Positions 4,410 to 44,086 of a stretch of 64,000 nucleotides of DNA are shown here, one piece after another. The first letter of the stretch is position 1; the number at the start of each line of letters is the position of its first letter. A program made the position numbers and the translations under genes. Under the pieces are notes generated by a model. The model worked only from the letters and a program-made list of their open reading frames with translations. It searched no databases and was not told the DNA's origin. Source of the DNA: Planctomycetota bacterium (GTDB taxonomy: Bacteria > Planctomycetota > Phycisphaerae > WQYP01); assembly GCA_021819825.1 (NCBI GenBank), contig JAKAEZ010000014.1:1-64000 (forward strand), given 5' to 3'.

Positions 4410-4979
4410 TTAAATCACGTCGTTGAACAACTGGAGCCTCTGCTCGAACTGCAGGAGTTGCTGCTGTCGTAGGATCGCCAAATATGCCGCCACATTCATT
4501 GGTGGATTCTTCAATCGGTTTCGCAACCTCTTGATGGCTGTGCAGACCGGCCCACGAGCCAGATCAAACTGGGAGATTAGATAGTCGTCAGGGTGTTGAG
4601 CCTTCAAGCCATAGGGCTTCAGTGCGTGCTCCGGGAAATCCTTGGTATTGAAAGTGACGATTACCCCGGCACGGGCAACGACAGCGGCTGCCAGGACGTG
4701 CCGGTCATTTTTGTCCGGCAAATTCAGGCTGTTAATCAAGTGTTCATACCCGACGACCAGACAGTCCGGCACCGCCTTATCCATCAGTTGCCGTGTTCGC
4801 GCCAGTTGTTCTGGTTTGATGTGCCTGTTGTTGTCTAATACGTTTCTGATCCATTCATTGTGAATCTGGTCGGTCCAGCGGACGCGGAAAATTCCTTCAC
4901 CACTGAGCTCCAGAAAGATGTCGCGCAAAGGCGCCGAATAAAACACGCATGAGTCAACGACGGCTGTGAAGGTGTCCAT
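4410..4979 (-). CDS. PIN-domain ribonuclease toxin of a type II toxin-antitoxin pair
   Basis: The 189-residue protein has the PIN acidic residues in order: D9 (VVDSCVF), E42 (HNEW), D92 (LPDKNDRHVLAAA) and D114 (TFNTKDF). These bind divalent metal in this RNase H-like nuclease family. An extra ~55-residue C-terminal part (about 135-189) sets it apart from the 130-residue VapC class and fits the longer PIN_3-type proteins. Its ATG (4979) directly follows the TGA of the upstream gene with no spacer, so translation is probably coupled. The upstream product is a helix-turn-helix protein, the usual antitoxin arrangement. Predicted role: cleavage of RNA, possibly tRNA or mRNA, when free of antitoxin. 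The target cannot be told from sequence. Confidence 0.82.
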   Translation of the reverse strand: MDTFTAVVDSCVFYSAPLRDIFLELSGEGIFRVRWTDQIHNEWIRNVLDNNRHIKPEQLARTRQLMDKAVPDCLVVGYEHLINSLNLPDKNDRHVLAAAVVARAGVIVTFNTKDFPEHALKPYGLKAQHPDDYLISQFDLARGPVCTAIKRLRNRLKNPPMNVAAYLAILRQQQLLQFEQRLQLFNDVI

Positions 4980-37803: not shown

Positions 37804-40800
37804 ATGAAATCCAATCTGCTTTCCCGGTTTATTCTGATCTTCGGTGCCATTGCTTTGGCGCTGTTCTGTATTTTTTCCAATGGCCTTAAGGGCGGAATTG
37901 ATCTATCGGGTGGAACCGATTTAATCTATCAGCTCAATGTGCCGCCCGGGTACAAGGGAGATCCCAATATCCTCGCCCAGCAGGTAATTTCCGTGTTGCG
38001 CCGACGCGTGGATCCGGGGAATGTGCATAATCTGGTCTGGCGGGTTCTCGCCGGTGAACGTATTGAAATCCAGATGCCTCTGGCCAGCGCCGAATCACGA
38101 CAGGCCCAAAGCCATTACCAGAACCTCGTTGATAAACTCCTGGCGGATAATATCATGCCCTCCCAGATCGGCGCGGCGATGGCATTATCGGGAAACCAGC
38201 GGCAGGCCCAGATAAAAATTCTCGCCCAGGGCAATCCCGCACGTTTAGCCCTGCTGAAAACGCTGGCAACCCGCTATGACGCTTTGGCTGCCGCCCGCAA
38301 AGTCGCAGCCAAATTTGCCAACGATCCGCAAAATATGCCGGCCCATGATATTGCCTTGTTAAATAATACTACTGCCGCCTACCAGAACACCCTGCAAAAA
38401 GTGCTTGCCTTTAATGTCAATGTGCAGCATCTGGCGAATCTGCTTTCGTCAACCTATGGCCGAAAAAATCCGCAAGCGCAGGCCGCCTTAAGTGATCTGA
38501 TCAAACGCCATTCCGATCGGAAAAATTTAATTCTCCAAATTCAGGCCGCCTACAAGCAGGTCCGCCTGCACAGCGCCGGCCTGGACAGCCCGCAGGAACT
38601 TGAACGCATGTTGCGCGGTGCGGGCGTTTTGGACTTCCGCATTACCGTTACTCCGCAAAATACCGGTGCCCAGCGAGCGCTGGCCCAATTGGCCACCAAG
38701 GGGCCGCATAATGGATACACCCCCGCCGGCACTGCCTGGTTTGAAGTTGATCCGCGCGATGGCAAAGATATTTTGCGATCGCGCGAACTATATGTCGTGG
38801 GGGAGTATGAGGGGCAACATTACATCCTGCTTTACACCAACAGTGCCCGCGCTTTAACCCATAGTGCCAACCGCGCGCACTGGCAGGTCAGCAATGCCCA
38901 ATTACAAACCGATCCGCAAACCGGCGAATTGGCGGTGGGATTTAATTTGGATACCGTCGGCGCTGCGTTCATGCGGCAGCTTACCAGCCATAATATAGGT
39001 CGCGATATGGCCATTTTGCTGGATGGCAAAGCCATCACCGCTCCGACTATCCAAAGCACCATCGCCGGTTCGGGGCAAATTACCCTGGGAATGCCGTCCG
39101 CCCGCAACCCCGCCAAGGATATTCAGCAGGAAGGGCAGTTGCTGGTGCAAACCCTCAATGCCGGTTCATTGCCGGCCACGCTGCAATCGCAACCGATCTC
39201 CGTGCAGACGATTGGTGCCACGCTGGGTGCCGACAATCTCAAGGCCGGTTTACGCAGTGCCATCATCGCGGTGATTGTGGTTCTGGGATTCATGTTTGTT
39301 TATTACACCATCACCGGCTTGTTTGCTGATGTGGCGTTAATGTTGAATTTGCTTTTGACGCTGGGCGTCATGGCTCTCTTACATGCCACGTTCACCCTGC
39401 CCGGAATCGCCGGTGTGGTATTGACCCTGGGTATGGCGGTGGATGCCAACATCCTTATTAATGAACGTATCCGTGAGGAAATTCATAAAGGGGCGTCGCT
39501 TTGGCTGGCGGTTAAACAAGGGTATGACCGCGTATTCTGGACAATTTTTGATGCCAATTTAACCACATCTCTGACCAGCATCGTGCTGATATTCATGGGG
39601 TCGGAAGATGTTAAAGGTTTCGGTATTACGCTGTTAATCGGTTTGGCTGTGCACATGTTCACGGCCCTGTTTGTTACCCGCACGCTGATGATTGCGGCCA
39701 TCCGGGCCGGCATCATGCGGAAAATTGATGATCTTTCCATCCAGGAATATTTCCGCGATCTGTTTACCTTTACCTGGCTTAAAGGCCGCTGGCCGTTTAT
39801 GCGGGTTTTTACCGTTACCAATTTTGACTGGATCGGCAAGCGGCGGATTTTCTGGGTCATTTCCGCCATCATCATGATTTCCGGCATCATCACCTTTATT
39901 GCCCGCGGCAACAAAAAATATGACACCGAATTTAACGGCGGCACCCAGGTTACCCTGCAATTGCGCCCGGGCTTGCAAATGTCCGTATCCGCGGTGCGAA
40001 AACGTGTACAGGATATTGGCCGGCATGATACAGCTCTTAAGGCCTTGCGCCATGCCACGGTTTATTCCGTGGGCACGCATCACGATGAATTTGTGATTAT
40101 CACCAGTATCGTCAACCCGCCGCAAAATAAGCCGGTCGCGCCAACCGCGGTTTCCACCGCGCCATCCGATGTGCCGGTCCAGCAGCTTACGCACGCGTTG
40201 GAATCGCAATTCGCCGATTCCATTAAGGTAACGCGAAAGCTGAAATTTATGCACGTGGCCGTTCGATCCCGGCATATTCAGGATCTGCTGGATGATCATA
40301 CCGTCATGCCTATTACGCATGCCAACCTCACCAACATGGGTCCCGGACTGCCCAGTGTGGACATTGGTGATTTCCGCGGGGGTGTGGCGATTTTCCTGCG
40401 GCACATCAGCCCGGCGCAAAGCGCTTCGGAAATTGAATCGCGCATTCGGGCTATGAGTCAGGAGCCGGATTTTGCCTCTCTGCAATACCGCCCATTTAGA
40501 GTTATTGCGCTGGCGTATGCACCCGCGGTGCCGGGCCACAAGCCAGCAGCCACCGATGCGGTGGTGGTCGCTTTGGACCCCAGTTTGCTTTATAAAGCGG
40601 ATAACACCGGCTTAGTTGCGCAGTGGAAATCAGAAGTTGCCGCCCCGGAATGGCGCATCGTTCGTACCGCTTTGACGACCTCCGGCGGATTGGCTGGTGT
40701 GACAAGTTTTGCCCCGCAGGTGGCCAGCGAGGCGCGGCTTAATGCCGTGATGTCGGTTCTGGTATCCCTACTGCTGATTGTGGCTTATGTGTGGATCCGA

Positions 40801-41310
40801 TTCGGCGGTGTGCGTTACGGCTTTGGCGTCATATTCTCATTGCTGCACGACGCCATTGTCGCGGTTGCCGCAACGGTTTTGGCGGTTTACATCCACCGGA
40901 CCTGGTTCGGTCATTTTATGCTCGTGGATAATTTTAAGATCAATATGACGATGATCGCCGCGTATCTGACCATTATTGGTTACAGCGTTAATGATACCAT
41001 CGTAATTTTTGACCGCGTGCGTGAAAACCGCGGCCGGTCCCGTCAACCGCTGACCGCCAAACTTGTTAATGACTCCATCAATCAATGCTTTGGCCGAACC
41101 GTTTGGACCACGTTCACCGTATTTTCAGTGGTGCTGATTCTGTATATCTGGGGCGGTCAGGGGGTGCACGGCTTTGCGTACGCCATGCTGATCGGCGTGA
41201 TCACGGGTGCCTATAGCACTTTAGCTATTGCCTCACCGATGCTGCTGCACATGAAAGACGCCCCGGTAAAAAAAGCGATTCCGGATAATCCGTATAAAGG
41301 TGGCGACTAG
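37804..41310 (+). CDS. secDF: SecD-SecF fusion protein
   Basis: The 1168-residue single chain joins SecD and SecF, the proton-driven factors that pull preproteins through SecYEG. The SecD half has TM1, GGIDLSGGTDLIYQL, an enlarged periplasmic P1 region with long helices (about residues 90-260), and a six-helix bundle with GMAVDANILINERIREE near 545-560. The SecF half restarts around residue 685 with FDWIGKRRIFW, then EFNGGTQVTLQL, and its own bundle with IGYSVNDTIVIFDRVREN near 1060-1075. Only a weak site (GGAAA) precedes ATG 37804. The TAG stop (41308-41310) is itself the TA target of the solo palindromic element. Confidence 0.96.
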   Translation: MKSNLLSRFILIFGAIALALFCIFSNGLKGGIDLSGGTDLIYQLNVPPGYKGDPNILAQQVISVLRRRVDPGNVHNLVWRVLAGERIEIQMPLASAESRQAQSHYQNLVDKLLADNIMPSQIGAAMALSGNQRQAQIKILAQGNPARLALLKTLATRYDALAAARKVAAKFANDPQNMPAHDIALLNNTTAAYQNTLQKVLAFNVNVQHLANLLSSTYGRKNPQAQAALSDLIKRHSDRKNLILQIQAAYKQVRLHSAGLDSPQELERMLRGAGVLDFRITVTPQNTGAQRALAQLATKGPHNGYTPAGTAWFEVDPRDGKDILRSRELYVVGEYEGQHYILLYTNSARALTHSANRAHWQVSNAQLQTDPQTGELAVGFNLDTVGAAFMRQLTSHNIGRDMAILLDGKAITAPTIQSTIAGSGQITLGMPSARNPAKDIQQEGQLLVQTLNAGSLPATLQSQPISVQTIGATLGADNLKAGLRSAIIAVIVVLGFMFVYYTITGLFADVALMLNLLLTLGVMALLHATFTLPGIAGVVLTLGMAVDANILINERIREEIHKGASLWLAVKQGYDRVFWTIFDANLTTSLTSIVLIFMGSEDVKGFGITLLIGLAVHMFTALFVTRTLMIAAIRAGIMRKIDDLSIQEYFRDLFTFTWLKGRWPFMRVFTVTNFDWIGKRRIFWVISAIIMISGIITFIARGNKKYDTEFNGGTQVTLQLRPGLQMSVSAVRKRVQDIGRHDTALKALRHATVYSVGTHHDEFVIITSIVNPPQNKPVAPTAVSTAPSDVPVQQLTHALESQFADSIKVTRKLKFMHVAVRSRHIQDLLDDHTVMPITHANLTNMGPGLPSVDIGDFRGGVAIFLRHISPAQSASEIESRIRAMSQEPDFASLQYRPFRVIALAYAPAVPGHKPAATDAVVVALDPSLLYKADNTGLVAQWKSEVAAPEWRIVRTALTTSGGLAGVTSFAPQVASEARLNAVMSVLVSLLLIVAYVWIRFGGVRYGFGVIFSLLHDAIVAVAATVLAVYIHRTWFGHFMLVDNFKINMTMIAAYLTIIGYSVNDTIVIFDRVRENRGRSRQPLTAKLVNDSINQCFGRTVWTTFTVFSVVLILYIWGGQGVHGFAYAMLIGVITGAYSTLAIASPMLLHMKDAPVKKAIPDNPYKGGD

Positions 41311-42223: not shown

Positions 42224-42967
42224 TCAACGTGCCGTCGGCACCGCCAATGCCCGCAATGGATTTTTCTGCACACGCACCGCAAGGGGCATTGAATTAAGCT
42301 GTGAACATAAATCAATATCATCCTCTAAGCCGCTCTCAATGATATTGATCCCGCCGGCCCCCAGTCGCAATGCCGCTCCCAGCCGCTCCCGCACGGAGGC
42401 AAAGCAGTGGTAGGCCATCCAGGCGGTGTCGGTGTACGGCAGATCAATGCGATACGTTCCACCGAGCAGATGCCACAAAACCGCCCCGGCCCCGATGACA
42501 TCTTCCTGGGATATCCGGCCATCGGTTCCCGCAAGTACCATCAGTGTATGCAGATGATCCAGTTGTCCGTTTAACGCTTCCGCGGTCGCCTGGGCGTTAA
42601 GCAGTGAGCCGATGAAAATGTCAGCCGCGGCCTGTGCGGCCACGACAGCGCGTGTGCCATTGGTGGTGCTTAACAGCACGGATGCCCCGCCCACCCGGTG
42701 CGTCTGATATTCCGCCGGAGAATTGCCCAGATCGAAGCCCGGCACCATGACGCAGCCGCGTTCGCCTGCGGAAAGCACAGGCGGAGGCACGTGGCTGCGG
42801 GCGTGGAGAACCGCGTCCACATCGGAAAATAACCGTACTTCCCTTGCTCCGTTGTGTAGCGCGGTGACAATGGTGCTGCTGGCGCGTAAAACATCAAAAA
42901 CCACAACCTGACTTTGCGGCAGGAGCATCTCGTTGAGCATGGCAGGTAGTAATACAACATCAATCAT
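42224..42967 (-). CDS. comB: 2-phosphosulfolactate phosphatase family protein
   Basis: The 247-residue ComB-family protein has VVVFDVLRASSTIVTALHNG (about residues 20-39), GFDLGNSPAEY, and STTNGTRAVVAAQAA in the family order. In methanogens ComB makes sulfolactate from phosphosulfolactate on the way to coenzyme M. In bacteria the homologues occur without the rest of that pathway, and their substrate is uncertain. I start at ATG 42967 because GAGG is six bases upstream; ATG 42973 is overlapped by that site. No com or sulfonate gene is nearby. Confidence 0.85.
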   Translation of the reverse strand: MIDVVLLPAMLNEMLLPQSQVVVFDVLRASSTIVTALHNGAREVRLFSDVDAVLHARSHVPPPVLSAGERGCVMVPGFDLGNSPAEYQTHRVGGASVLLSTTNGTRAVVAAQAAADIFIGSLLNAQATAEALNGQLDHLHTLMVLAGTDGRISQEDVIGAGAVLWHLLGGTYRIDLPYTDTAWMAYHCFASVRERLGAALRLGAGGINIIESGLEDDIDLCSQLNSMPLAVRVQKNPLRALAVPTAR

Positions 42968-43170
42968 CGGCATCCTCATCCAAAAACAGAAGATATCATA
43001 CCGCATCCGCAATTTAACCGGTCAACTTGACTTTGCCATTCAATCGGATATACTTCCTCCAACGATTGTGGAGAAGGCCCGACGACCGTCATTACTGGAA
43101 ATAGAGGGGCTGATCTTCAATCGGAAATCCGGGTTTCTTCGTGCTTCCATGCGGACAGAAGTAATAATTG

Positions 43171-43199
43171 ACCGGTTTATGAAATTAAGCCGGTTTTTT
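43171..43199 (+). terminator. Intrinsic terminator in the comB-trmB intergenic region
   Basis: ACCGG-TT (43171-43177) pairs with AA-GCCGGT (43187-43194, one bulge), followed by T6. No plus-strand gene precedes it: 42968-43170 is open only to doubtful frames. It may therefore end a small RNA or a leader starting divergently from comB. Confidence 0.6.
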
Positions 43200-43222
43200 G
43201 TTATTAGTTTGTCCGTCAGTTT

Positions 43223-43344
43223 GGCGGAGGAGCGAAACGAACCTCGGATGCAGTTGATTTTGAAACTGCCGCCACCGTGTGGGTTCCCACTTTGCCTGCA
43301 CGAAAGCTGTCGCGCCCCACTCGGCAGCCCGTGGCGGCTTTTTT
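43223..43344 (+). promoter_or_regulatory. Riboswitch/attenuator-like leader before trmB
   Basis: GGCG (43223-43226) can pair with CGCC (43270-43273), closing a three-way junction with stems GAGG/CCTC (43227-43230, 43242-43245) and GCAGTT/AACTGC (43250-43255, 43264-43269). Alternatively GCCGCCAC (43268-43275) pairs exactly with GTGGCGGC (43331-43338), directly followed by TTTTTT (43339-43344), a terminator. The two pairings use the same bases and exclude each other, the usual logic of a transcriptional switch. No known riboswitch consensus was recognised. It lies 70 bases before the trmB start. Confidence 0.5.
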
Positions 43345-43411
43345 ATAGCCACATTTTCTGACGTTGCACGGGTTACGTAATTCCGAATTTTTCCTATTCA
43401 AGGATTTTCCT

Positions 43412-44086
43412 TTGGCCTTAAAGCCCAATTTAATTCCCGAACCGGCCTTGCTGGTTGTCCCCGATGATGCGGGTCTGCTTTCCTGGCGGGATATTTTTCA
43501 AAATGATCATCCCGTGCAAATGGAGATTGGCTCCGGAAAAGGCACGTTCCTTTTGGCTGCTGCCACTGAATTTCCCAGTCATAATTTTATCGGAATTGAG
43601 TGGGCGCGAGCCTATTGTGATTTTGCCGCCGACCGAATCCGTCGGCATCAACTTCCCAATGCCCGCATGGTTCGCGCCGATGCCAACTGGTGGATTCGCG
43701 CCCACGTTCCGGACCAGTCGATCCACGCGCTGCATGTCTACTTTCCTGATCCGTGGCCCAAAGCTCGCCATCACAAACGCCGACTAATTCAAACGCCGTT
43801 CCTTCTCCACGCGCTGCGCATTCTTGTGCCGGGCGGTATCTTGCGCATCGTCACCGATCACGCCGGTTATTTTGAACACATTCGCACGGTATGCTCCGAA
43901 TTCAAAGCTTTGCGCATCATTGATTTTGTGCCCCCATTGCCCACTGCCGATGGCCTGCTGGTGGGCACCAATTTTGAAAAAAAATACATCCTGCAAAACC
44001 GAAGTTTCAACAGCATCGCCCTGAAAAAACCAATAACTCAATGCGGCAGCGTTGAGCCTAACGCGGAGCAGGATTTGCTCTCATAA
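43412..44086 (+). CDS. trmB: tRNA (guanine-N7)-methyltransferase
   Basis: The 224-residue SAM-dependent enzyme makes m7G46 in tRNA. Motif I is QMEIGSGKGTFLLAAA, the SAM acidic residue lies in FIGIEWARAY, and the TrmB-specific block is HVYFPDPWPKARHHKRRLIQ, followed by GGILRIVTDHAGYFE. The start is TTG 43412 with AAGGA seven bases upstream; the frame is open 16 codons earlier but only through a poor context. It sits behind the attenuator-like leader. The last 29 bases overlap the convergent SGNH hydrolase gene. It ends with an extra ~20 residues (TQCGSVEPNAEQ) past the usual core. Confidence 0.92.
   Translation: MALKPNLIPEPALLVVPDDAGLLSWRDIFQNDHPVQMEIGSGKGTFLLAAATEFPSHNFIGIEWARAYCDFAADRIRRHQLPNARMVRADANWWIRAHVPDQSIHALHVYFPDPWPKARHHKRRLIQTPFLLHALRILVPGGILRIVTDHAGYFEHIRTVCSEFKALRIIDFVPPLPTADGLLVGTNFEKKYILQNRSFNSIALKKPITQCGSVEPNAEQDLLS

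Follow-up and report, generated by a model that had tools for sequence, protein, structure and literature searches.

Does the structured sequence in front of trmB in a Planctomycetota contig serve trmB, or is it the end of a gene of its own? The window, by which we mean the whole 64,000-nt stretch analysed, carries trmB (43412..44086, + strand), which encodes the tRNA m7G46 methyltransferase (Pfam PF02390, E 4.3e-39) and begins 67 nt behind a run of six T residues (T6). The original prediction for this locus was a ligand- or tRNA-sensing switch with tandem terminators and mutually exclusive pairings. When the terminator in front of a tRNA-modification gene is really the 3' end of another gene, it can pass for a riboswitch. 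The start of trmB itself is most likely TTG 43412 (MALKPNL...) rather than the first in-frame TTG at 43364; the aligned trmB genes of relatives start with ATG or TTG at the position matching 43412.

Conservation and structure of the element

A DNA search of 60 relatives located homology to other genera within window positions 43255-43357 at most, and usually within 43267-43346, the matches having 87-96% identity and E values of ~1e-22 to 1e-30. The conserved element (43268..43345, + strand), delimited by homology search, alignment and folding, was 85-100% identical over 10 genera of one Phycisphaerae family. Between genera, its identity was 85-97% and that of the region 5' to it no higher than for shuffled sequence; within the genus, the corresponding values were 96-100% and 63-81%. 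TrmB proteins of different genera were 49-68% identical, below the level of the element. Bacterial non-coding RNAs (ncRNAs) that are ~90% conserved over genera with dissimilar surroundings are usually needed by the cell.

The 78-nt element folded into a three-way junction ending in a U-run, with a free energy of -39.0 kcal/mol (z -4.7) that none of 200 shuffles equalled. Its closing helix P1 pairs GCCGCCAC (43268..43275) with GTGGCGGC (43331..43338) and encloses two hairpins: P2 (43276..43302), with the stem CGUGUGGG / CCUGCACG and the loop UUCCCACUUUG, and P3 (43306..43328), with the stem GCUGUCG / CGGCAGC and the loop CGCCCCACU. Both loops are invariant and have CCCACU in common. The T6 run (43339-43344) follows P1 directly on its 3' side, so that 43331..43344 has the form of an intrinsic terminator, and a U-run of at least five T lay no more than two bases from P1 in 21/21 family members. 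The terminator stem and the helix that closes the conserved RNA are thus one and the same. The P1 helix and the six T residues had been predicted at exactly these positions, as had a three-way junction; a junction is real, but the strongly conserved one, overlooked in the prediction, lies inside P1 (43268-43338). A hammerhead-like reading of a GAAA junction was discarded: the stretch between P1 and P2 offers no CUGANGA to match it, and the GAAA is not invariant, being GCAA or GCCA in other aligned members.

In an alignment of 19 members, 98.3% of cells paired; sliding the partner strand brought this down to 44% or less. P1 was invariant. Compensatory changes occurred at two pairs of P2, each of which had changed in two separate lineages of the TrmB tree, and the P3 stem showed changes from U-G to C-G, one of its pairs being U-G in 10 of 18 sequences. 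Further G-U pairs were found in P2. These assign the RNA to the + strand, because on the other strand they would be A-C mismatches. The strong conservation of the element leaves room for only modest covariation.

The claim that no known riboswitch consensus fits was borne out. There was no match to Rfam 15 anywhere in the window (cmscan), and a cmscan search of the window and seven relatives at permissive E-values likewise gave nothing over the element. The same eight sequences had no T-box covariance match at any threshold used. There was no tRNA-like match, and the window contains no tRNA gene. SRP RNA and 6S RNA were dismissed as identities of the element, which fits neither model; their matches lay on other contigs. 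Among these, the candidate 6S RNAs (G000:C36:4703-4909 and family orthologues, L102-L105) scored mostly below the Rfam gathering score, which suggests that 6S RNA is divergent in this family.

Distribution and gene neighbourhood

A covariance model found exactly one copy of the element in each of 21 of the 28 family genomes, all of them metagenome-assembled (MAGs), and one copy in 17/17 of those at least 90% complete. Six of the seven genomes in which it was missing (G001, G003, G009, G021, G025 and G027) are incomplete assemblies that also have no good TrmB match; in the seventh, G016, trmB stands at a contig end. Among 397 genomes of the class, a single further covariance match was obtained (G324), and 392 genomes of the phylum gave none beyond the window's own. 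The match in G324 and a partial BLAST match in G037 were judged to be chance, since both fall within coding sequence or at its end (a MATE-like transporter, assigned by eye, and an oxidoreductase-like ORF). A match upstream of the trmB of another family (L133) was set aside on similar grounds, as it hit both strands of what appears to be coding sequence. An exact pattern run over ~85,000 genome assemblies hit 20 contigs, all from Planctomycetota MAGs and several named Phycisphaerales; in many cases the isolate name suggests an acid mine drainage site. No match to the element turned up in phage, plasmid or viral collections.

In 19 of the 21 genomes with the element, trmB was the next gene on the same strand, 12-133 nt behind the U-run. 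The conserved structure that the prediction expected upstream of trmB in relatives is therefore present in these 19, and it shows covariation. The distance from the U-run to the start codon was as short as 12 nt (G017 and G022) and 16 nt (G014). In G013, an unrelated gene of 456 aa with no Pfam match is placed between the element and trmB; counting this genome, trmB lies downstream in 20/21. The exception is G011, in which a promoter-like site and an element 97% identical to that of the window are followed by no co-directional gene: a GH28 gene behind is convergent, the gene before the element reads away from it, and the trmB of this genome lies on a different contig and lacks the element.

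The genes upstream of the element vary: members of the window's genus have comB, those of genus g4 an RNase Y-like gene and the remaining ones various others (identities outside the window's genus were assigned by eye). In the window, ComB (42227-42967, - strand; 2-phosphosulfolactate phosphatase, PF04029) is divergent from the unit formed by the RNA and trmB, and a SecD-SecF fusion is encoded at 37804-41310 (+ strand) as a single protein of 1168 aa. In 24 genomes from other families of the class, trmB had no such leader, and a terminator within 300 nt upstream in only a few cases.

Promoter, 5' region and the proposed switch

A sigma70-type promoter, TTGACT-16-TATACT, is predicted at 43027..43054 (+ strand; score 11.7 versus 7.0 +/- 1.4 for shuffled sequence), with a start at ~43061. 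The form TTGACW-16-TAWACT is kept in G002, G005, G006 and G007, the four other genus members whose sequence reaches that far, and equivalent promoters with a 16-nt spacer occur in 11 family genomes of other genera. Over the 19 loci scored, 15, including that of G011, had a promoter-like TTGACW-16-TANNNT 95-263 nt upstream of the element (scores 10.6-14.5 versus ~7 +/- 1.5 for shuffled sequence); the site of G013 is less typical (TTGACG-17-AATAAT), and G012, G015 and G020 had no outstanding one. These calls, like those of terminators, are consensus matches rather than transcripts. Since a promoter-like site stands upstream at most loci, the conserved unit comprises promoter, variable 5' region, conserved domain and terminator. 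A promoter immediately before the element had also been considered; it was superseded by the more distant one of most members, a clear TATAAT being confined to G011. That second site (L030, ~4540-4570, - strand), with its TATAAT 7 nt before the element, occurs only in the genome that has the element alone.

The predicted 5' region of the transcript (43061..43267, + strand; ~90-260 nt in relatives) is folded and not conserved between genera. It includes T1 (43170..43199, + strand), a terminator-like hairpin of 10 bp (43170-43195) with a T-run to 43199 (-13.1 kcal/mol; 0 of 200 shuffles as good). T1 is present where it was predicted, and restricted to the genus: one pair is compensated in G007, the hairpin is broken in G005 and the U-run is interrupted in G002. 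Within the genus, no part of the 5' region is better conserved than the block TTTGGCGGAGGAGCGAAACGAA (43220..43243, + strand), which hardly varies even in G005, the member that has diverged most, and is absent from other genera.

Could the block and the element encode a short peptide? Translation from ATG 43248 (MQLILKLPPPCGF...) gives a frame that is open in the window, and GGAGGAG precedes the ATG. In several genera, single-base indels inside the element break this frame; stops occur just before the element in G002 and G005, and nearly all substitutions in the frame preceding the element are non-synonymous. These observations contradict the peptide, and we attach practically no credence to it.

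The proposed mutually exclusive pairings proved to be half right. A competing upstream junction (~43221-43274), in which 43222-43226 pair with 43270-43274 around two inner hairpins, can form (-19.6 kcal/mol, z -3.2) and shares bases with P1; a functional relevance of this alternative was not supported. The switch built on it would have the junction (43222-43274) as antiterminator or aptamer and T1 and T6 as alternative terminators. It draws on the ability of the pairings to form in the window, on closing pairs that are invariant within the genus, and on the strong conservation of 43220-43243 there. The invariance of the closing pairs makes them uninformative, the inner arms are broken without compensation in three of the five genus members (G005, G006 and G007), and outside the window's genus the upstream DNA does not align. 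The upstream form is also ~19 kcal/mol weaker than the terminator form, and T1, the other half of the tandem design, is lost in G005. Thus, no conserved antiterminator/terminator pair was found, the upstream arm being confined to one genus with its inner helices broken. Together with the absence of T-box or tRNA-like matches and with G011, which keeps promoter and RNA with no trmB behind and has a trmB without the element, these results argue against a ligand- or tRNA-sensing switch for trmB, and we consider the version built on the upstream junction very improbable.

An RNA gene or a trmB leader

The element looks like a member of a new ncRNA family that has one copy per genome and a promoter of its own, terminates at T6 and usually lies just before trmB. 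Own promoter and intrinsic terminator, as expected of an sRNA gene, are represented by promoter-like sites at 15/19 loci and a U-run in 21/21. Conservation independent of the neighbours is seen in the differing upstream genes, in G011 with no trmB behind and in G013 with its inserted gene. A riboswitch would always be in cis to the gene that it regulates, and in G011 there is no co-directional gene. The explanation that we judge probable from the comparative evidence is an autonomous ncRNA gene with 43268-43345 as its conserved 3' domain, a product that acts in trans or in a ribonucleoprotein, and a trmB fed partly by read-through. Its independence from trmB rests mainly on G011, a single MAG, and against a purely independent sRNA stands the adjacency of trmB in 19/21 genomes, for which such an RNA would have no need.

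RNA polymerase would start at the promoter 43027-43054 and transcribe the fast-evolving 5' region and then the invariant three-way junction, where the closing helix formed by P1, together with T6, would provide a compact end-paired domain and termination at once. The product would be ~285 nt, or ~80 nt if processed, and may act in trans or within a ribonucleoprotein via the loops UUCCCACUUUG and CGCCCCACU, both C-rich and invariant. Where trmB sits directly behind, as it does in most genomes, it would owe at least part of its transcription to read-through of T6, so that the RNA would set a basal level of trmB. Such read-through probably feeds trmB, because a start codon 12 nt after the U-run (G017 and G022) is too close for trmB to have a promoter of its own beyond the element.

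The same short gaps speak for a cis-acting attenuator of trmB, in which the junction would be an aptamer or protein site, P1 the terminator, and a ligand, a protein or TrmB itself would shift termination at T6. With trmB next in 19/21 genomes and gaps down to 12 nt, any transcription of trmB has to pass through T6 or begin within the element, and loops as conserved as these are typical of aptamers. Against this, the promoter and element of G011 are followed by nothing that they could regulate, and the trmB of that genome does without the element; the terminator, which in riboswitches usually competes with the aptamer, is here the closing helix of the conserved domain, with no conserved antiterminator; Rfam offers no match; and in the 24 genomes from the class's other families, trmB lacks a comparable leader and is hardly ever preceded by a terminator. 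We regard an attenuator as unlikely. Within the autonomous-gene explanation, a special case is an architectural or protein-binding RNA, a sponge or ribonucleoprotein component that pairs with no mRNA and whose similar loops bind a dimeric protein. The two invariant loops, both with CCCACU, would suit it, as would the single copy, as in housekeeping RNAs, the absence of Hfq and the lack of any excess of extended complements in the genomes; the similarity of the loops could be coincidence, and the partner is hypothetical, which leaves this version rather doubtful.

The 28 genomes showed no enrichment of exact matches to the 12-mer complement of the P2 loop (6 non-self matches versus ~two dozen for the reversed control), and we therefore propose no target. 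The matches in G016 and G009 were rejected as candidates, as they lie in coding sequence in genomes where no element was found. Hfq (PF17209) was detected in 0/28 family genomes, which makes a classical Hfq-dependent sRNA unlikely. Tentatively, we propose an undescribed and probably important single-copy ncRNA class of one Phycisphaerae family, many of whose members seem to come from acid environments, in which the closing helix is the terminator, the CCCACU loops would act free of Hfq, and trmB would be set by read-through. To our knowledge, few searches for such RNAs have covered the Planctomycetes. A universal single-copy RNA in a family without Hfq would give a handle on Hfq-independent RNA biology.

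Among known systems, 4.5S SRP RNA and 6S RNA are likewise present in one copy per genome, highly conserved and end-paired, but in these genomes SRP RNA and a 6S-like RNA have loci of their own, and the element fits neither model. T-box and other tRNA-sensing leaders also place a terminator upstream of a tRNA-related gene; here there is no T-box match, and trmB is neither an aminoacyl-tRNA synthetase nor an amino-acid gene. The three-way-junction riboswitches for purines and TPP resemble the element in conserved loop and junction bases, closure by P1 and position before a gene, and differ in that its P1 is the terminator, no alternative arm is conserved, it occurs with no gene downstream and Rfam has no match. 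The nearest models appear to be published terminator products of 5'UTRs that are RNAs in their own right. They include Rli51, a 5'UTR-derived, terminator-ending sRNA before mpl in Listeria (PMC11394854), and 5'UTR RNAs of Escherichia coli found by 3'-end mapping (PMC7815308). Compared with these, the element is set apart by a conservation far above that of the gene, by its persistence without the gene, by a terminator stem that closes a three-way junction rather than forming a simple hairpin, and by a host without Hfq. With Rli51, the E. coli 5'UTR RNAs and rnTrpL, it would share a promoter, a structured RNA, an intrinsic terminator and a gene reached by read-through, and possibly an action in trans.
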